Source: Halopiger djelfimassiliensis
Lineage (GTDB): Archaea; Halobacteriota; Halobacteria; Halobacteriales; Natrialbaceae
Length of the DNA: 64,000 nt
Assembly (NCBI RefSeq): GCF_000455365.1
Contig: NZ_HG315684.1
Coordinates: forward strand, 962,659-1,026,658
Reading direction: 5' to 3'
Below, piece after piece: positions 6,853-24,318 of this stretch (positions within the stretch are counted from its first letter, which is position 1; every line of letters starts with the position of its first letter). Both the position numbers and the translations under genes were made by a program. The notes beneath the pieces were generated by a model, which worked only from the letters and a program-made list of their open reading frames with translations, did not search any database and was not told the origin of the DNA.

Positions 6853-7298
6853 TGACCATCACCGATGGGGGTGTTCGTGAGTGGACCGCCCTCCCTGCCG
6901 GCCACGCACTGCCGGCGGATCAGTGTACGGAACCATTCACGACTACTGAAATTCTGGAACTAACAGGTCTTAAACGGCAGGGAACCAACCGAATCCACAC
7001 ACAATAAATAAATTATCGAGAATTAACATAATAACTGTCTTTCTCGGGAAAGGACGTGACATACAACCCATGGATTGGTTATACTGGTTGTTTATTGGGG
7101 GTTGAACCATTATGTATGACTGAATATTCAGTAATAGTCCCAGTTACGAAAATTCATATAAGTGTTTCGGCCATCGGGAAGATGAATGGACGGCGAACCC
7201 TATCGTTCGTGACCACTCGTTCGTTCCGCGCGCCGGCATCGGGGGAAGGCGTCGCTCGAATACCGGCCTTTTTCCACCTCGAGCGGGAACGGTCGGCT
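6853..7298. other. Divergent intergenic region, AT-rich
   Basis: 446 bases between two divergent genes. 6985-7035 is unusually AT-rich for this genome (ACAATAAATAAATTATCGAG and surroundings), consistent with promoters for one or both genes. No convincing coding frame, RNA gene or long repeat was seen. Confidence 0.5.
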
Positions 7299-7727
7299 AT
7301 GAGTGACCACCGCGAGGAGTTTCTGGCCGGCGACCGGCCCGACGACGTCGCGTTGTTTCTGGCGGAGTCGTACGTCTCCGACGACCGCCTCGAGCAGTTC
7401 GGTGAACGTGTCGACGACGGCGTTTTGATCGTCGTCGACGGCGAGCGCGGCCGGAGCGCGTTCCAGGCGGCGACCGGGACCCAGGCGATGGAGTTCGCCA
7501 AATCGGCGATGGGACTGGAGGGTGTTGTCGACGACGATCTCGCCGGCGGCCAGTGTCCGGAAGCCCCGACCGACGAGACCCACGCGATACAGTTCGTGTT
7601 CGCCTTCGCCGAGGAGCAAAACGAGGACGTCGGCGGTATCTACGCCGAGGGAGACGTGATCCACGCCTATGCACAGTGTACGTGTGGGACGGCGTTTTCG
7701 GACCGGTGGACGGTCGCCGACACCTGA
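7299..7727 (+). CDS. Haloarchaeal DUF5807-like protein
   Basis: 142 residues starting at MSDHREEFLAGDRPDDV. The frame is open further upstream, but that part is not protein-like. Acidic and soluble. Three Cys are present: one in GGQCPEAP and a CTCG pair near the C-terminus. The domain has a beta strand with VLIVVDGERGRSAFQAATG. It matches a haloarchaeal family of unknown function. Not obviously in an operon; the next gene starts 78 bases later in the same direction. Confidence 0.75.
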   Translation: MSDHREEFLAGDRPDDVALFLAESYVSDDRLEQFGERVDDGVLIVVDGERGRSAFQAATGTQAMEFAKSAMGLEGVVDDDLAGGQCPEAPTDETHAIQFVFAFAEEQNEDVGGIYAEGDVIHAYAQCTCGTAFSDRWTVADT

Positions 7728-8274: not shown

Positions 8275-9405
8275 ATGACCGATCAACACGATGTCATCGT
8301 CCTCGGGGTCGGCGGCATGGGGAGCGCGACGGTCGCCCACCTCGCGGACCGCGGCGTCGACGTCCTCGGCCTCGAGCGTTACGACGTCCCTCATGGCTAC
8401 GGCTCTTCCCACGGGATTACCCGAATCTTTCGGCTCGCGTACTACGAACACCCCGACTACGTCCCGTTGCTCCGGCGCGCAGCGACCCTCTGGGAGGACC
8501 TCGAGAGCGACCACGACCGGCAGTTGCTGTACCGAACCGGCTCGATCGACGCCGGCCCGACGGACGACCCGCTCGTCGAAGGATCGAAACGCTCCTGTGA
8601 GGAACACGATCTCGAGTACGAACGCCTCTCGAGCGACGAGTTGACCGACCGGTATCCGGGCTATCGGCTCCCGGACGATTACACCGCGATCTACCAGCCG
8701 GACGGCGGGTTTCTCGTCCCGGAGGACTGTATCGTCGCCCACGTCGATCGCGCCCACCGAGCGGGGGCGACGATCCGTGCCCGCGAGCGCGTCGTAAACT
8801 GGCAACCGACCGACGACGGCGGCGTCCGCGTCGAAACCGATCACGCCGCCTACGAGGCCGACTCGCTCGTAATCACTGCGGGTGCGTGGGCAGCCCAGTT
8901 CGTCGACGCCCTCGACGGAATCGCCGTCCCCGAGCGACAGGTACTCGCGTGGCTTCAGCCCGACGAACCCGAGTACTTCGCTCCCGAGCGGTTCCCCGTC
9001 TGGAACCTGCGGGTCCCGGAGGGACGGTTCTACGGCTTTCCGGTACACGGCGTTCCGGGGTTCAAGCTCGGCCGGTACCACCACCGCGAGGAGACGGTCG
9101 ATCCCGACGCATTCGAGCGCGAGCCGACCCAGGCGGACGAACGCCTGCTTCGCGAGTTCGCGGAGCAGTACTTTCCGGCGGGGGCAGGTCCGACGATGCG
9201 CATGGAGACGTGTCTGTTCACGAATACGCCCGACGATCACTTCGTCCTCGATACCCTTCCCGAACATCCGCAGGTCGCCGTCGGAGCCGGCTTTTCGGGC
9301 CACGGGTTCAAGTTCGCGAGCGTCGTCGGCGAAATCCTCGCCGACCTCGCCCTCGACGGCGAGACCGACCACGGGATCGAGATGTTCTCGCTGGATCGGT
9401 TCTAA
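8275..9405 (+). CDS. solA: FAD-dependent N-methyl amino acid oxidase (SolA/sarcosine oxidase family)
   Basis: 376 residues. The N-terminal dinucleotide-binding motif VLGVGGMGSA lies near residues 9-18. The SSHGITRIFRLAY segment and Cys313 in ETCLFTNTPDDHFVLD match monomeric sarcosine/N-methyltryptophan oxidases, where this Cys carries covalent FAD. The enzyme oxidatively demethylates an N-methyl amino acid, yielding formaldehyde and hydrogen peroxide. The exact substrate cannot be read. Its stop overlaps that of the convergent DUF5305 gene by 3 bases. Confidence 0.9.
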   Translation: MTDQHDVIVLGVGGMGSATVAHLADRGVDVLGLERYDVPHGYGSSHGITRIFRLAYYEHPDYVPLLRRAATLWEDLESDHDRQLLYRTGSIDAGPTDDPLVEGSKRSCEEHDLEYERLSSDELTDRYPGYRLPDDYTAIYQPDGGFLVPEDCIVAHVDRAHRAGATIRARERVVNWQPTDDGGVRVETDHAAYEADSLVITAGAWAAQFVDALDGIAVPERQVLAWLQPDEPEYFAPERFPVWNLRVPEGRFYGFPVHGVPGFKLGRYHHREETVDPDAFEREPTQADERLLREFAEQYFPAGAGPTMRMETCLFTNTPDDHFVLDTLPEHPQVAVGAGFSGHGFKFASVVGEILADLALDGETDHGIEMFSLDRF

Positions 9406-10748
9406 TTTCCGTCGCTCGAGTTCCCCACACTCCGATCGGTTACGGCCGTTCCCGAGTCCGTTTCCGCGGGTGCCGTCCGGGCTTGCCGAGCGTCGAATCC
9501 CGTCGTCCGTCCGCCTTCGTCGCCGTGCTCGATCGTGATCGGGGGTTGATCGCTCTCCGTGCCGGCCTCGCCGATCATCGTCGGCTCGGGTCCGTCGGTC
9601 GAGCCGGCGTATTCGGTCTCGAATGTCCCACCCGTCACCTCGCCCTCGTTCGTGCGCTCGAGCGGCGGTGGCTGGTAGACGTACCGTAGATCGTCGTGGG
9701 TCACGACGTAGCGTCCCGTCCGTCTATCGTGGACGACCGCGGTCCCGACGTCGATCCCGAACCGGACCAGCGACGAAAGCGACGCCATCTCGACGCGCTG
9801 GCCCTCGAGCGCCGTCCGAGGGAGGTCGGCGCGGACGATCACCTCCTCGAACTGCGACCGGTCGGCCCGGTAGGCGAGCCACTCGCGTTCGGCGGCCGTC
9901 GGGCGATCGAACCGGACCGTGGCGAGGATGACACCGACGAGTCCGCCGCCCCCGACGGCCACGAGGAGCGGACCGCCGACGGTCCGTGTCGGACCCGGCG
10001 ATGCGGCGACGGTTTCGGTCCGATACGAGTCGTTCGGTACGTCGTAGTCGTTCTCGTCGTCGATCCGGTACGTCGCCCCGTCGTACTCGACCGTGACGGT
10101 GAAGCCGTCCGTGGCACGCCGCTGCTCGCCGTCTATGGTGCCCGTTATCTCGCGGTCGAGTTCGAGACGGATCTCGGTCTCGCCCGGACTCGCATCGAGA
10201 TCGCGTTCGATCTCGTCGATCCGGGTCCCGACCGCGGAGACGTTGAGATCGAACGCGGCGGTAACCGGGTCGCCGGGAGCGACGTCGTGTTCGGTCACGT
10301 TCGCCAGCCGCTCGGTCTCGTACCAGTAGACGGTTCCGTCGTCCGAATCGACGGCCCGATAGCGCAGATCGACCGTGAGCGCGATCGTCACGTTCTCGCC
10401 CCGCTCCGCCTCGTACCCGCCGGTAAACGCGCCGTCGACCGTCGGCGTGATCGCCGTGTAGTACAGGGGTTCCTCCTCGAGCACGGTGCCCTCCGGATAG
10501 ACAGTCGTCGGTTCGGTCACCGTGGCCTCGTGTTCGAGCGATCCGGTCGCGGTCCAGCGGTGTTCGAGTTGTCGGTCGGTCTCCTCGCCCGGGTCGGCAT
10601 AGGCCCCGTAGCTTACCCACGCACCCGCCGCGAGGACGACGACGAACGCGATCACGATCGCCGTTCGATACTCCCAGAAGCGAGTGCGAAGCCGGAGTCG
10701 ACGTTCGGCAGTGCCGTTCGTTCCGTCGCGGGTGTCACTCGAGATCAT
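9402..10748 (-). CDS. DUF5305 membrane protein of the secretion locus
   Basis: 448 residues from MISSDTRDG. One transmembrane helix lies near residues 24-45 and a second near 258-280. Between them is a beta-rich extracytoplasmic domain (Tyr, Thr and Glu rich). The cytoplasmic C-terminal region is acidic and low in complexity. The gene starts 5 bases after the stop of the signal peptidase gene, so the two are cotranscribed. DUF5305 proteins are found beside archaeal signal peptidase genes. Their role is unknown; chaperoning or anchoring of exported subunits is a guess. Confidence 0.85.
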   Translation of the reverse strand: MISSDTRDGTNGTAERRLRLRTRFWEYRTAIVIAFVVVLAAGAWVSYGAYADPGEETDRQLEHRWTATGSLEHEATVTEPTTVYPEGTVLEEEPLYYTAITPTVDGAFTGGYEAERGENVTIALTVDLRYRAVDSDDGTVYWYETERLANVTEHDVAPGDPVTAAFDLNVSAVGTRIDEIERDLDASPGETEIRLELDREITGTIDGEQRRATDGFTVTVEYDGATYRIDDENDYDVPNDSYRTETVAASPGPTRTVGGPLLVAVGGGGLVGVILATVRFDRPTAAEREWLAYRADRSQFEEVIVRADLPRTALEGQRVEMASLSSLVRFGIDVGTAVVHDRRTGRYVVTHDDLRYVYQPPPLERTNEGEVTGGTFETEYAGSTDGPEPTMIGEAGTESDQPPITIEHGDEGGRTTGFDARQARTAPAETDSGTAVTDRSVGNSSDGN

Positions 10749-10753
10749 GGATG

Positions 10754-11896
10754 TTACAACCGTCGTCGGGTCGACCGGCGACCGCGGGCCGACGTTCGCC
10801 TCGAACGCGGATCGGCGGGGCCGAGGACGAGCCGACTGAGTCCGTAGGTCGTCCCACCGAGTACCGAGAGGACGGCGACGAACGGGACCCACGGATGGAC
10901 GCCGTAGAGCGCGTCGATGACCGAAACCGGGAGGACATGCAGGTAGCGGCGCTCGGTGACGGTCGTGGGATAGTGTCCCCGCTCGTCGGGTGCCCTGATC
11001 GTGAGACCCACCTCGCGTTCGTCCCGTGGTCCGACCGTCGTCGGCCCGGCGTCGACCGTCGCGTGTTCGCCGCCGGCCTCGACGTACGAGACCACGGGAA
11101 CGAACCCGCCGTTCGAGACGGGGAAGGGCAACTCCTCGACGGTCCCCTGTTCGATCACCAGCGGCTGCTCGGAGTCGAACTCCGCGCTGATGACGTCGTA
11201 GGACTGGGTGCCGGCGGGAACGGTCATCGCCGCCGCCGCGGCGACGACCACGAACAACGCGAAAAGCGCCGAGAGGTGCCGCGGATCGAGCCGCGATTCG
11301 TCGCGACCGAACCGCGACTCGAGGGACGGACTGCGCCGCTCCCTGACCGTTTCGACGGCATAGAGCACGGTCGAGAGGCCAAGCAGCAGGAACGGCAGGC
11401 CCGACGCTCCGAAGGGGGTCCGCGTTCCCGTCACCGTCGCCAGCCGAGCCTCGACGCGCTCGAGACCGGCGCTTGCCGTCATAACGGCGGTACCAAACCG
11501 GGGTACCGTGACGACGTCGCCGTTTACCTGCCAGGCTTCGGCGACGATCCGATCGTCGGTAACCGGCGGTTCGTCGCCGTCCTGATCCGTGACGGGGTTT
11601 GCATCCCCGCGAGTTACGTATCCCTGCGGGGTCTCCTCGACGATCCGGTGGGTCGTCAGCCCGCCACCCTGGATCCGTTCGGCCTCGAAGACGACGACGT
11701 CACCGGGTTCCGGCTCTCCGGTCAGTTGGCTGGGAATCGCGACGAAGCCGTCGCCGGTTTCGATGGTCGGTTCCATACTCCCCGTTTCGACGAAGCCAAG
11801 CAGGATCGGTTGGCCGAGTATCTGTCCCGCGACCATCGCGAGCACAGTCACGAGGACGAGCCCCTGTAGTACCCATCCTGCTCCCCGCCGGATCAT
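10754..11896 (-). CDS. sip: Archaeal signal peptidase I (S26B) with C-terminal extension
   Basis: 380 residues. Helix 1 (residues 8-30) is followed by the catalytic motif GSMEPT with Ser40, then THRI with His83 in place of the bacterial Lys, and GDANPVTD with Asp98/Asp104. This Ser-His-Asp arrangement is the ER/archaeal type, as in SipW-like enzymes. Three further helices (about 166-185, 210-232 and 340-362) enclose an extracytoplasmic beta domain absent from minimal signal peptidases. The position next to SipW-type substrates suggests dedicated processing of those proteins. Confidence 0.93.
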   Translation of the reverse strand: MIRRGAGWVLQGLVLVTVLAMVAGQILGQPILLGFVETGSMEPTIETGDGFVAIPSQLTGEPEPGDVVVFEAERIQGGGLTTHRIVEETPQGYVTRGDANPVTDQDGDEPPVTDDRIVAEAWQVNGDVVTVPRFGTAVMTASAGLERVEARLATVTGTRTPFGASGLPFLLLGLSTVLYAVETVRERRSPSLESRFGRDESRLDPRHLSALFALFVVVAAAAAMTVPAGTQSYDVISAEFDSEQPLVIEQGTVEELPFPVSNGGFVPVVSYVEAGGEHATVDAGPTTVGPRDEREVGLTIRAPDERGHYPTTVTERRYLHVLPVSVIDALYGVHPWVPFVAVLSVLGGTTYGLSRLVLGPADPRSRRTSARGRRSTRRRL

Positions 11897-11915
11897 TCTT
11901 CCACATAAACGAACT

Positions 11916-11924
11916 CAATAAAAT
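11916..11924 (-). promoter_or_regulatory. TATA-like box for signal peptidase gene
   Basis: On the minus strand ATTTTATTG ends about 20 bases before the ATG at 11896, the spacing of a leaderless haloarchaeal promoter. It would let sip and DUF5305 be transcribed separately from the substrate genes upstream. Confidence 0.4.
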
Positions 11925-11990
11925 TACTTGTAAGTTTGTGACAGAATAACAGCAAGAACCCGGATTCTGCGAACGGCGACACCGCGGGGC

Positions 11991-12053
11991 GGCGGCCAAC
12001 TGCCGCCACGAGTACGGTACTTCTCGAAAACGGCGGGGTGACAGGGACCCCGC
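11991..12053 (-). terminator. Two hairpins between the 41-aa gene and sip
   Basis: On the minus strand, 7 bases after the stop of the 41-residue gene, lies a perfect 7-bp stem (12033-12039 with 12047-12053, 7-base loop). A second 6-bp GGCGGC/GCCGCC stem sits at 11991-12007. No T-tract follows directly, so these could be terminator, attenuator or RNA-processing elements. They would lower expression of the peptidase genes relative to the secreted subunits. Confidence 0.45.
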
Positions 12054-12060
12054 AGCCCCA

Positions 12061-12186
12061 TCAACTGGTAAAGAGGCGTTCGAGTTCCGCGTTGATCGTT
12101 TCCCGATCGATCTTTTCGCCGTCCAGGTCGAATTCGATTCCTCCCGTTTCTTCGTAATCGCTGAGTGTCGGTGGTTCGTCCGTCAT
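12061..12186 (-). CDS. 41-residue acidic peptide coupled to the secreted-protein gene
   Basis: A complete frame with ATG at 12186 and TGA at 12061. The start is 2 bases after the TAA of the preceding DUF1102-type gene, so translation is probably coupled. The peptide begins MTDEPPTLSDYEETGG and ends INAELERLFTS. It is acidic, has no signal sequence or Cys, and has a predicted helix at the C-terminus. A strong hairpin follows the stop. Function unknown: a cytoplasmic partner of the secreted subunits is possible. The tight spacing and haloarchaeal codon bias support a real gene. Confidence 0.65.
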   Translation of the reverse strand: MTDEPPTLSDYEETGGIEFDLDGEKIDRETINAELERLFTS

Positions 12187-12188
12187 GG

Positions 12189-12788
12189 TTAGATCGCTTG
12201 CGCGGTGATTTCGATTTCGTCCTCGATCTCGACCCCGTCAACCGCGCCTTCGGGGAGTGCAAACGCCAACACGCTGAAGTCGATCTCGTCGCCCGGCGAC
12301 AGTTCCGAGATCGACATGACGTTCAGGGGCGGTCGCCACGTCAGATCCAGACCGGGTTCGAACCGACCCATATGTGGGACGAGGAACACGCCCAGCAGCC
12401 CGTCGAAGCCAAACCGGTCCGCGTCGATGAAGATCAGCGGCGCGACCTCGAGTTCGATCTCCTGGGTCCCCCGGTTCTGTATCCGAAAGAGGTCGGCGAT
12501 CCCCGTGACTGCGTTCGTGTTCAGTCCTTCACCGCCGGCGATACCGGAGCCGATGTTGTCGTTGTCGCCGGTCAGGTCGATTGCGAGCGCGTCGCTGCCC
12601 GTCGTCTCGGCGTAGTTCCCGTTCGGCCCGTTTCCGGGCTGGATACTGAGATACGCGCTGGCGTCGTCCGCGACGGTAACGGCGACGTCACGCTCGGCCT
12701 CGACGCTGCTGAACGCGCCGGTGCCGAGGGCGATGCTGCCGCCGGCGGCGAGCGTGCCGACGCTCAGGATGATTTTTCGTCGTTCCAT
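12189..12788 (-). CDS. SipW-type signal peptide secreted protein (DUF1102-like), copy 1
   Basis: 199 residues. Basic N-terminus (MERRK), a Gly/Ala-rich hydrophobic segment, then GTGAFSSVEAERDVAVTVAD. This is the SipW-type signal and processing region also seen in TasA/camelysin-like proteins. The mature part is beta-rich and acidic, with DASAYLSI, a central FRIQNRGTQEIELEV repeat-like strand pair and no Cys. It is likely exported and cut by the signal peptidase downstream. It follows copy 2 by 13 bases. The predicted role is an extracellular matrix or fibre subunit, inferred from signal type and fold. Confidence 0.88.
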   Translation of the reverse strand: MERRKIILSVGTLAAGGSIALGTGAFSSVEAERDVAVTVADDASAYLSIQPGNGPNGNYAETTGSDALAIDLTGDNDNIGSGIAGGEGLNTNAVTGIADLFRIQNRGTQEIELEVAPLIFIDADRFGFDGLLGVFLVPHMGRFEPGLDLTWRPPLNVMSISELSPGDEIDFSVLAFALPEGAVDGVEIEDEIEITAQAI

Positions 12789-12801
12789 GGCCGGTCACCG
12801 A

Positions 12802-13338
12802 TTAGTTCGCCCTCGCGGAGATGATCACCGAATCGAGCAGTTCGTCGCCGTCACCGAGTCCGCTGTCCGTGGTGTCGACCTCGAGACTGACGACTGCGCT
12901 GTCGCCCGGACCGAGGGTAACGGCGCTGTCCGAGAGCGACTGACCGTCGTACGCCTCGTCATCGGGGTAGAACCCGACCAGATCCGCATTGTCGCCGACC
13001 TTGGAGAGATCGACGTCGACGTCCTGGGTGCCCTGGTTTTCGATGACGAACAGGTCGTCGATCTGCGTAACTGCGTCCGGGTTGAGACCGTCACCGGAAA
13101 CGGCGTCGTTACTCGGGCTGAGGTCGATCGTCAACGTTCCGCCGTTCCCGTCCCCGGTGACGTAGTCCGCGTTGGCGCCGCCGGCACTTGCGAGTCGGAG
13201 GTAGGCGGACGCGTCGTCGGCGACCTGCACGTCGATGTCTCGCGTCGCGGTCACGCTCGTGAACGCACCGGTTCCGACGACCGCTGCTGCTCCCGATGCA
13301 AGTGCTCCCATTCCGATGACGAATTTGCGTCGTTGCAT
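12802..13338 (-). CDS. SipW-type signal peptide secreted protein (DUF1102-like), copy 2
   Basis: 178 residues from MQRRKFVIG; an in-frame ATG 12 bases upstream is the alternative. It is clearly paralogous to the next gene: GTGAFTSVTATRDIDVQVAD, DASAYLRL, LFVIENQGTQDVDVDL. The C-terminal strand pair (DSAVVSLEVDT) fits a beta-sandwich. The protein is strongly acidic and Cys-free. First gene of the minus-strand unit, so it is probably the most strongly expressed subunit. Confidence 0.88.
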   Translation of the reverse strand: MQRRKFVIGMGALASGAAAVVGTGAFTSVTATRDIDVQVADDASAYLRLASAGGANADYVTGDGNGGTLTIDLSPSNDAVSGDGLNPDAVTQIDDLFVIENQGTQDVDVDLSKVGDNADLVGFYPDDEAYDGQSLSDSAVTLGPGDSAVVSLEVDTTDSGLGDGDELLDSVIISARAN

Positions 13339-13793
13339 AGTTTGAATCACTGATGTCGTTTTCGTTGGCCTCTCTCACGGGCAACACCACGTCAACCCGC
13401 GTCGATTCGGCATCATCGATCCCCCGATGGGATCGTATCTCATCGGTGAACGCCATCGGGTATTGTAATACGCTCGTGGAGTCGATCTCAACGTCACGTT
13501 CCGTCCGGTCAACCGTCCGCCGACCGATACCGAACCGTAGAATGGGAGGCAGTGACGAGATCCGTGTCGAACGCGCCTCCCGTCCCCAATATCGACTGTT
13601 TGACTCGGGTCAACGTCCATTTGAACCGGTTTCGAGACCACTGTCTCCGGTCGCTCGCTCGCCGACTACGGTATTCGGAACGAACACTCGGTCGAACGGA
13701 TCGACGATCGTCCGCGCAAACCGTCGTCGATTCTCAATTATTTAATCTCCACCGAACACTTTTATTGAAAGAGGGAATACGATTGTATCATAT
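13339..13793. promoter_or_regulatory. Divergent promoter region of the secretion locus
   Basis: 455 bases between the divergent DUF1102 genes and the HTH regulator. On the plus strand CTTTTATTGA at 13759-13768 lies about 30 bases before the regulator's ATG (13794) and is a good TATA candidate. The region holds short frames on both strands, but none has a protein-like composition. Reciprocal control of both arms by the HTH protein is plausible. Confidence 0.45.
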
Positions 13794-14417
13794 ATGGGGG
13801 AATCTCACATGGAACTGGCCAAGGGTAACAAACTGTCGAGGCCGAAAACGGAGGCGGGGACGTCCGACGAGACCCTCACGGAGGACGAACTCTTCGAACT
13901 GCTCTCGAACCAGCGGCGACGATATATCCTCCACGAACTCATGCGCACGGGGGAACGAATCGACATCGGGACCCTCTCACAGGAGATCGCCGCCTGTGAG
14001 GACGGCCTCGATCTCCACCAGGTCACGAGCAGCGATCGCAAACGCGTCTACACCGCTCTTCACCAGTCACACCTGCCGAAAATGGACAAGGCCGGCGTCA
14101 TCGACTTCGACCGCGACCGGGGAACGGTCGAACCGACGCCGGCCCTCGAGGACGTGGAAATCTACATGGATATCGTTCGCGGGCGCGAAATTCCGTGGGG
14201 CGACTACTACCTCGGGCTGACGCTCCTTTCCGGCGCGTTGCTCGTCGCCTCGGCGCTCGCGATCGGTCCGTTCGCGGCGGTGTCGCCCTACGCGTGGTGC
14301 GTGTTCGTCGTCGTCACGTTCGGCGTCTCCGCGCTCGCACACCGCTACTACGCCAGACGGAACCGACTCGGGATCGGCAGCGATCCGCCGGGGGTCGAAC
14401 ACACCTACACCGAGTGA
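13794..14417 (+). CDS. HTH regulator with C-terminal membrane hairpin (DUF7344-like)
   Basis: 207 residues. Residues 30-125 form a winged-helix domain (ELFELLSNQRRRYILHELM, KRVYTALHQSHLPKMDKAGVIDFD), the typical haloarchaeal DUF7344 type. Two hydrophobic helices follow (about 140-160 and 166-186), anchoring it to the membrane. It is divergent from the secreted-protein genes and 37 bases upstream of a third relative. It probably senses envelope state and controls this locus. An alternative start at MELAKG, 15 bases in, is possible. Confidence 0.85.
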   Translation: MGESHMELAKGNKLSRPKTEAGTSDETLTEDELFELLSNQRRRYILHELMRTGERIDIGTLSQEIAACEDGLDLHQVTSSDRKRVYTALHQSHLPKMDKAGVIDFDRDRGTVEPTPALEDVEIYMDIVRGREIPWGDYYLGLTLLSGALLVASALAIGPFAAVSPYAWCVFVVVTFGVSALAHRYYARRNRLGIGSDPPGVEHTYTE

Positions 14418-14454
14418 ACCGCCAGCCACCCGCCGAAGATCCCAGCCACACACG

Positions 14455-15366
14455 ATGAAACGGACACGACGCACGGCACTGGCAATGATCGCCGGTTCGG
14501 GCGGTCTCCTCGCAGCCGAGACGTTCGGTTACTCCCGCAGTAGCCCCGAACGGGACGTTCCACTCGACGTCGTCAGCGACGTTGACGCCTATCTCGGGCT
14601 AACCGAGGGAACCGAAGACGGCGTCGAAAGCAGCGGCGTCCTGTTCGATGACGGAACGGCCGCTGGCGTACCGCCTGCAACGTTCGCCGTCGCCAACCAG
14701 GTGGCCGAGCCGCTTTCGATCGCGCTGACCGTCGACGACCCCTTCCGATTCGACTCGCCCGACGGCGAGGGCGGAACGTTGACCCTCGGCCACGGGGAGA
14801 CGGATCCGCTCTCACCCGGCGAGGCGCTCGAGCCCGTGACCGTCGACCTCGATCCACGGACGGCCCTCCCGCCGTTCGACGAGCAGGTCACCGGCACCGT
14901 CACCATCGAGGGCGACGGCGACGGAACGTCCATCGAGGCCGCCCGCTCGCTCGCGCTCGTCTCGGACGTGTTGCTCACGATCGATCTCACCGGGATCGGG
15001 ACGGTGCCGGACGTACTGATCGTCCTCCGGAAGCGACGAGCGGACGAGGCGTCCCCGTCGTACGTCGTCGAAACGGTCGACGCCGAAACCGGCGACGCGA
15101 ACCGGGTACGCGAAGTGAGCTGCCGGCCGAAACCGACGCTGCGGCTGACGTTTCCGGCGGCGACACACCCCGACCTCGAGATCGACGCCTGTCCGCGGGT
15201 CGACGTCGATCAGTTCGCGGCCTCGGTGAGTTCCGCGGCGGCCGACGATGGCGACGGCGACGATTCGGCGACCGGCGGCGACGACCCCGCACTCGTCGTC
15301 GATCCGGACGTCACGGCGGACGCGACCGACCGGGTCGAACGCATCGACGTACCGCTCGAGGTGTGA
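14455..15366 (+). CDS. Third SipW-type secreted protein of the locus
   Basis: 303 residues. The N-terminus (MKRTRRTALAMIAGSGGLLAAETFGY) is followed by ERDVPLDVVSDVDAYLGL, matching the ERDVxVxVxxDxxAYLxL region of the two DUF1102-like paralogues. The hydrophobic core is short and the AFxSV signature is degenerate (GYSRSS). The mature part is longer, with two Cys (CRPKP and DACPRVD) and an acidic tail near the C-terminus. It could be a minor or anchoring subunit. It ends 4 bases before the convergent LLM oxidoreductase stop. Confidence 0.8.
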   Translation: MKRTRRTALAMIAGSGGLLAAETFGYSRSSPERDVPLDVVSDVDAYLGLTEGTEDGVESSGVLFDDGTAAGVPPATFAVANQVAEPLSIALTVDDPFRFDSPDGEGGTLTLGHGETDPLSPGEALEPVTVDLDPRTALPPFDEQVTGTVTIEGDGDGTSIEAARSLALVSDVLLTIDLTGIGTVPDVLIVLRKRRADEASPSYVVETVDAETGDANRVREVSCRPKPTLRLTFPAATHPDLEIDACPRVDVDQFAASVSSAAADDGDGDDSATGGDDPALVVDPDVTADATDRVERIDVPLEV

Positions 15367-24245: not shown

Positions 24246-24318
24246 GGGCGCGTAGCTCAGTGGACAGAGTTCTTGGTTCCGGACCAAGATGTCGGGGGTT
24301 CAAATCCCTCCGCGCCCG
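24246..24318 (+). tRNA. tRNA-Arg(CCG)
   Basis: 73 bases fold into a cloverleaf. Acceptor stem 24246-24252 pairs with 24311-24317 (7 bp, discriminator G). The D arm starts GCTCAGTGG. The anticodon stem CTTGG/CCAAG encloses TTCCGGA with anticodon CCG. The T arm is GGGGG TTCAAAT CCCTC. CCG reads the Arg codon CGG. No intron; CCA is not encoded. Confidence 0.95.
24297..24318 (+). repeat. attachment-site-like repeat, copy within tRNA-Arg 3' end
   Basis: The last 22 bases of the tRNA gene (T arm and acceptor 3' strand) recur exactly at 24399-24420. Such a duplication is what site-specific integration at a tRNA 3' end leaves behind. Confidence 0.7.

Follow-up and report, generated by a model that had tools for sequence, protein, structure and literature searches.

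The window analysed here is a 64,000-nucleotide stretch of the genome of the haloarchaeon Halopiger djelfimassiliensis (contig NZ_HG315684.1, positions 962,659 to 1,026,658), and the subject of this report is a divergent gene cluster at window positions 9402–15366. Its minus-strand genes, taken from right to left, encode two secreted subunits (pilin 2 and pilin 1), a 41-residue protein, an S26 signal peptidase and a DUF5305 membrane protein; the plus strand encodes a DUF7344 helix-turn-helix (HTH) regulator and a third secreted subunit. An earlier note, made from the sequence alone, had described a SipW/TasA secretion locus at these coordinates. Re-examination reproduced its gene content and coordinates correctly, apart from start sites and one extra gene, that of the 41-residue protein, which had been overlooked. 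Judged by homology, the locus comes closest to the Tafi pilus of haloarchaea, not to TasA/SipW, and its product is very probably a thin Tafi-type surface fibre, for which a working model is proposed below. The features of the locus are as follows.

9402..10748, minus strand: DUF5305 membrane protein, 448 residues (Pfam PF17231, 178 bits)
10754..11896, minus strand: S26 signal peptidase of the Ser/His/Asp type, its membrane helices enclosing an additional C-terminal beta domain (NCBIfam sigpep_I_arch, 55.7 bits)
12061..12186, minus strand: 41-residue acidic protein of cytoplasmic type (same position in relatives; substitution rates)
12189..12788, minus strand: pilin 1, secreted, Tafi-type, 199 residues (PDB 9P0A, E 1.7e-14; NCBIfam TafE, 64 bits)
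12802..13338, minus strand: pilin 2, secreted, Tafi-type, DUF1102-like, 178 residues (PDB 9P0A, E 1.5e-9; Pfam DUF1102, 36.5 bits)
13461..13471, minus strand: conserved promoter element GTATTACAATA of the subunit genes (kept in orthologous intergenic regions)
13391..13614, no strand assigned: candidate operator array with GTCAAC/GTTGAC sites at 13391, 13508 and 13609 (hexamer density)
13794..14417, plus strand: DUF7344 winged-helix regulator with a C-terminal membrane segment (Pfam PF24035, 98.9 bits)
14455..15366, plus strand: third secreted subunit, TafC-like, 303 residues (NCBIfam TafC, 33.6 bits; hhalign to the pilins)

Two of the start sites were revised. The open reading frame of pilin 2 opens at a GTG at 13350, and its start is most likely the ATG at 13338. 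Similarly, the most likely start of the DUF5305 gene is the ATG at 10748, 5 bp past the stop of the signal peptidase gene, to which it is coupled.

The identity of the secreted proteins is carried by a match to a solved structure. A profile of the pilin family, searched against the PDB, returned one convincing structure, 9P0A (E 7.3e-17), whose title is Structure of Natrinema sp. J7-2 Tafi pilus, and each pilin also finds this entry as a single sequence, with the E values listed above. Because the subunits are homologous to a solved haloarchaeal pilin, there is strong support for an extracellular fibre that has its own S26 signal peptidase and a linked regulator; this part of the earlier claim stands, and the SipW/TasA label is not supported. 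The predicted fold of pilin 2 leads to the same entry. For the AF2 model of its mature part (predicted local distance difference test, pLDDT, 82.3; predicted template modelling score 0.79), the best match in a fold search (VIA) is 9P0A, with a Z score of 9.2 and a root-mean-square deviation of 3.0 over 123 aligned residues. This alignment begins at model residue 17 and leaves out the low-confidence N-terminal residues 1–16, where a donor strand would lie. The bundling pili of Pyrobaculum (7UEG, Z 7.7) and the threads of Sulfolobus (7PNB, Z 7.1), with FimA also within 7.1–7.7, stay below a Z of 8, a range that by the tool's own calibration may reflect a common arrangement only. No TasA chain is among the 50 fold matches listed for this model, a result that leaves a TasA fold compatible with it.

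The N-termini of the pilins are consistent with this assignment. Both carry twin-arginine signals (MERRKIIL in pilin 1 and MQRRKFVI in pilin 2), and the arginine pair recurs in 127 of 130 relatives, which suggests that the pilins are exported by the twin-arginine translocation (Tat) pathway, most likely in a folded state. The processing region reads GTGAFSSV in pilin 1 and GTGAFTSV in pilin 2, and its core (G[TS]GA[FVL]) is present in 124 of the 130. The invariance of A1 and F2 in the pilin alignment is partly due to the way the sequences were trimmed, and the count of the core is independent of it. Cleavage near the GTGA/F junction is predicted because 188 of the 215 residues of 9P0A are resolved and its chain ends at 215, so the first resolved residue would be F28. 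The earlier note had placed a GTGAFxSV core in all three secreted proteins. The homology of all three is confirmed and spans the entire mature domain (hhalign comparison of the family formed by the two pilins with the third protein, 97.2% probability, E 3.4e-11, 130 columns), but the core itself is found in two, and the third reads ETFGYSRSS. In this third subunit, whose gene directly follows the HTH gene, the TafC match covers residues 2–62, and the C-terminal half is variable. Its two Cys residues lie there and show no conservation as a pair, for which reason they were dropped as the mark of a special role. A search of the third subunit against PDB sequences gave nothing useful.

The partner proteins were described correctly beforehand. 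In the signal peptidase, Ser40, His83, Asp98 and Asp104 are correctly placed and invariant in 15 of 15 aligned homologues, as expected of a catalytically complete enzyme. The protein passes the NCBIfam sigpep_I_arch cut-off, whereas the SipW model NF046067 scores 36.7 bits against a cut-off of 190. The DUF5305 protein, present as had been reported, consists of an N-terminal membrane helix, an external beta domain (residues about 55–248), a second membrane helix, a small internal domain and a disordered tail; its AF2 model has a pLDDT of 84.7, with core blocks mostly above 90, and a search of PDB sequences gave nothing useful. The divergent membrane-bound HTH regulator was likewise recovered, as a DUF7344 domain followed by a hydrophobic C-terminal segment (residues 138–182).

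This gene arrangement recurs widely. Scanning public genomes with the peptidase alignment yielded 80 loci, 67 of them long enough for content counts; DUF5305 is present in 63 of the 67 and the HTH gene in 61, while 63 have one or more subunits that share the processing region, so the arrangement is far above chance. Genes in these loci were called by a simple custom script, which makes absences (TafF, TafA) less sure than presences. The nearest relatives of the window locus belong to the Natrialbaceae (Natrinema, Natribaculum, Haloterrigena). An aconitase, a luciferase-like (LLM) oxidoreductase and a flavin adenine dinucleotide (FAD) oxidoreductase flank the locus and recur beside it in many Natrialbaceae genomes, and it is therefore a stable chromosomal locus; a mobile-element origin was rejected on the same grounds. 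No relatives of the peptidase were found on viral contigs, and plasmids searched with the 9P0A pilin and with TasA gave no match. Elsewhere in the window lie a DUF5807 protein (7056–7727, plus strand, 175 bits) and the sole tRNA of the window, a tRNA-Arg (CCG; 24246–24318, plus strand).

The 41-residue protein, MTDEPPTLSDYEETGGIEFDLDGEKIDRETINAELERLFTS, is a new observation of this analysis. It is acidic and has no signal sequence, and its reading frame starts 2 bases past the stop of pilin 1. The gene is kept at the same place in the loci of ten other genomes, each time adjoining a pilin 1 orthologue; the two are conserved together across nine genera, and the gene occurs in 21 of 391 genomes of the class. 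Between the window copy and six relatives, nonsynonymous divergence (dN, 0.13–0.24) is well under synonymous divergence (dS, 0.68–1.42), and the frame is therefore a real gene under purifying selection.

Also new here are the promoter element and the candidate operator array, both of which lie in the intergenic stretch that separates the HTH gene from pilin 2 (13351–13793). The 11-mer GTATTACAATA occurs once in the whole 3.78-Mb genome and is found in 14 of 17 orthologous intergenic regions, usually 110–136 bp ahead of the subunit start and in two at 57–65 bp. GTTGAC/GTCAAC hexamers reach 7.5 per kb in these 17 regions versus 0.61 per kb elsewhere in the same loci, a 12-fold difference. The regions compared are related sequences, and the motif counts are accordingly not independent. 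In one relative (L040), the core TATTACAATA occurs twice, at 8943 and 10472, apparently ahead of separate subunit genes, which hints that a small regulon exists.

The genome that contains the window also holds an orthologue of the J7-2 Tafi locus on contig 1, at about 1.115–1.125 Mb (stretch 1110000–1129500). Between the two halves of this orthologous locus lies a 922-residue DUF7289 protein with a type IV pilin-like N-terminus. In a genome that encodes the 9P0A pilin at 100% identity, the order is DUF5305, S26 peptidase, a CARDB/TafF-like gene and the pilin, with DUF7289, the DUF7344 HTH gene and a further subunit running divergently. Where a locus has an NCBI-certified TafA, it also includes the peptidase and a TafE-like gene; in nearly all such loci, the DUF7344 HTH gene is followed by TafC, and most have TafF and DUF5305. 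In a tree of 117 peptidases, the certified loci form one clade (Shimodaira–Hasegawa-like approximate likelihood ratio test, SH-aLRT, 100), and a second clade (97) holds the 9P0A loci. The window peptidase belongs to neither; it clusters with Natrinema loci (96), within a 28-member clade of Natrialbaceae (100). Because the J7-2 orthologue lies elsewhere in the genome and the window peptidase sits on a separate branch, the window locus is a second, paralogous Tafi-type cluster of its genome. Another genome (G005) has three Tafi-type peptidase loci (L049, L054 and L063), and several different fibres per cell may be common.

In the proposed working of the locus, the membrane-tethered HTH protein would control the divergent promoter via the GTTGAC array and GTATTACAATA. 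Once the pilins had crossed the membrane by the Tat route, cleavage by the membrane S26 peptidase would free a short N-terminal strand, and homology and fold suggest that this strand would fill out the beta sandwich of the subunit that follows, so that the fibre would grow through donor-strand exchange like other archaeal pili. The DUF5305 protein, whose two membrane helices enclose an external beta domain and which also has an internal domain, is the best candidate for a base or assembly platform, and the TafC-like third protein may serve as a tip, adapter or starter subunit. The 41-residue protein, found only beside pilin 1, could speculatively be a cytoplasmic helper of pilin 1 before export.

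Several observations weigh against this reading. At the window locus, the filament, the cleavage site and the regulation are predictions made from the genes. The fold search with DUF5305 gave no informative match, its hits being unspecific sandwiches of the Ig-like or transglutaminase-C-like type with Z no higher than 8.3, and for pilin 2 all fold matches besides 9P0A are under a Z of 8, save one unrelated ciliary chain at 8.2. No cut-off of an NCBIfam Taf equivalog is reached by the window subunits (TafE, 64 bits for pilin 1 and 67 bits versus 155; TafA, 37 and 42 versus 190; TafC, 34 for the third subunit versus 410), although the solved 9P0A pilin fails these cut-offs too, and mature parts without the signal still match TafE in 66 of 67 relatives. 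A CARDB/TafF-like profile search found no TafF gene in the window cluster, and TafA is also absent from it. The locus thus falls outside Tafi in the narrow sense of the curated NCBIfam TafA/TafC/TafE cut-offs with TafF in the cluster; it has what the wide sense names, a homologous pilin, a twin-arginine motif, and a linked S26 peptidase, DUF5305 and DUF7344 HTH. The roles given here to Tafi genes are taken from NCBI names and from the title of the PDB entry; a study of Tat-fimbriae (Galeva et al. 2025, iScience 28:111793) is cited in PMC12687288.

The same gene-only basis leaves some room for loose surface or S-layer-associated proteins, accompanied by a peptidase, a DUF5305 protein and an HTH protein that would form a general envelope processing or stress module. 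DUF5305 and DUF7344 are families of unknown function, and with a second Tafi locus in the genome the window locus need not make fibres. Homology to the solved pilin over most of the domain, a partner set equal to that of fibre loci, and genes kept with a conserved place and promoter nevertheless make this alternative improbable. A true SipW/TasA system, in which a SipW orthologue would process TasA-type matrix fibres, is less probable still: a Ser/His/Asp peptidase with weak SipW similarity does adjoin its likely substrates, mature TasA starts with an aromatic residue near the cut (PMC10269814), as is predicted here, and TasA and archaeal pili both use donor strands (PMC9674648), but Pfam Peptidase_M73 (TasA/camelysin) has no match in the whole genome, the pilin-family profile search of the PDB did not return TasA to an E value of 10, hhalign against TasA gave 0.5% probability over 23 columns (against one TasA sequence, which began with an additional F), the match to the Tafi pilin is far stronger, and the signals are of the Tat and not the general secretion (Sec) type.

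The fibre reading would extend beyond the halophiles. DUF1102 proteins of non-halophilic archaea are homologous to the window pilins (hhalign 99.0%, E 5e-18, 152 columns), and their tandem genes (loci L235–L239; families f19, probably Thermococcaceae, and f39) share a module with an S26 peptidase carrying the same C-terminal domain, DUF5305 and mostly a DUF7344-like HTH protein. These subunits have no twin arginines and are apparently exported by Sec; the tandem loci, the function of which is not described in the literature searched, are likely fibre loci. Because the same module surrounds DUF1102 without twin arginines, it would be older than the haloarchaea, and Tat export would be a haloarchaeal trait. 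In a more tentative scenario, with chances slightly short of even, Tafi would be an ancient euryarchaeal fibre system including DUF1102, which in haloarchaea switched from Sec to Tat and was then duplicated, giving each genome several paralogous fibres, while the lineage of the window locus gained a dedicated 41-residue cytoplasmic helper of one pilin and its own promoter/operator switch.

The finding is real and widespread but concerns a known kind of fibre, its new parts being the 41-residue protein, the promoter element with its array and the link to the DUF1102 module. Rather than being a single operon, the Tafi-type fibres of haloarchaea make up a family of paralogous clusters, of which a genome has several, around a fixed core of peptidase, DUF5305 and DUF7344. 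Testable roles follow for three families of unknown function (DUF5305, DUF7344 and DUF1102), and experiments gain two handles, the very small conserved partner protein and the promoter element with its single occurrence in the genome.

Among known systems, TasA/SipW of Bacillus subtilis follows the same general logic, in which fibre subunits bearing an N-terminal donor strand are encoded next to a dedicated Ser/His/Asp peptidase, but its subunits have no sequence or profile similarity to those of the window and take another export route; on the present evidence, the resemblance is one of working principle, not of membership. The Pyrobaculum bundling pili and Sulfolobus threads, both donor-strand fibres, are similar in predicted subunit fold, within the limits given above for such Z scores, and have no sequence match to the window pilins. 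The DUF1102 loci have tandem subunits, S26 peptidase, DUF5305 and mostly an HTH gene in common with the window, which alone of the two has the twin-arginine signal. The NCBIfam Tat-fimbriae share the subunit family, the peptidase, a DUF7344 HTH gene directly ahead of a TafC-like gene and usually DUF5305, and differ from the window in TafA, TafF, above-cut-off subunits and a peptidase clade of their own. Compared with the J7-2 Tafi locus, the window has a separate peptidase branch, two adjacent pilins and the 41-residue protein, and is without the CARDB/TafF-like gene and the DUF7289 type IV pilin-like protein. The two clusters share homologous pilins, the S26 family, DUF5305, the DUF7344 HTH protein, a divergent layout, the twin-arginine signal and GTGAFSSV.

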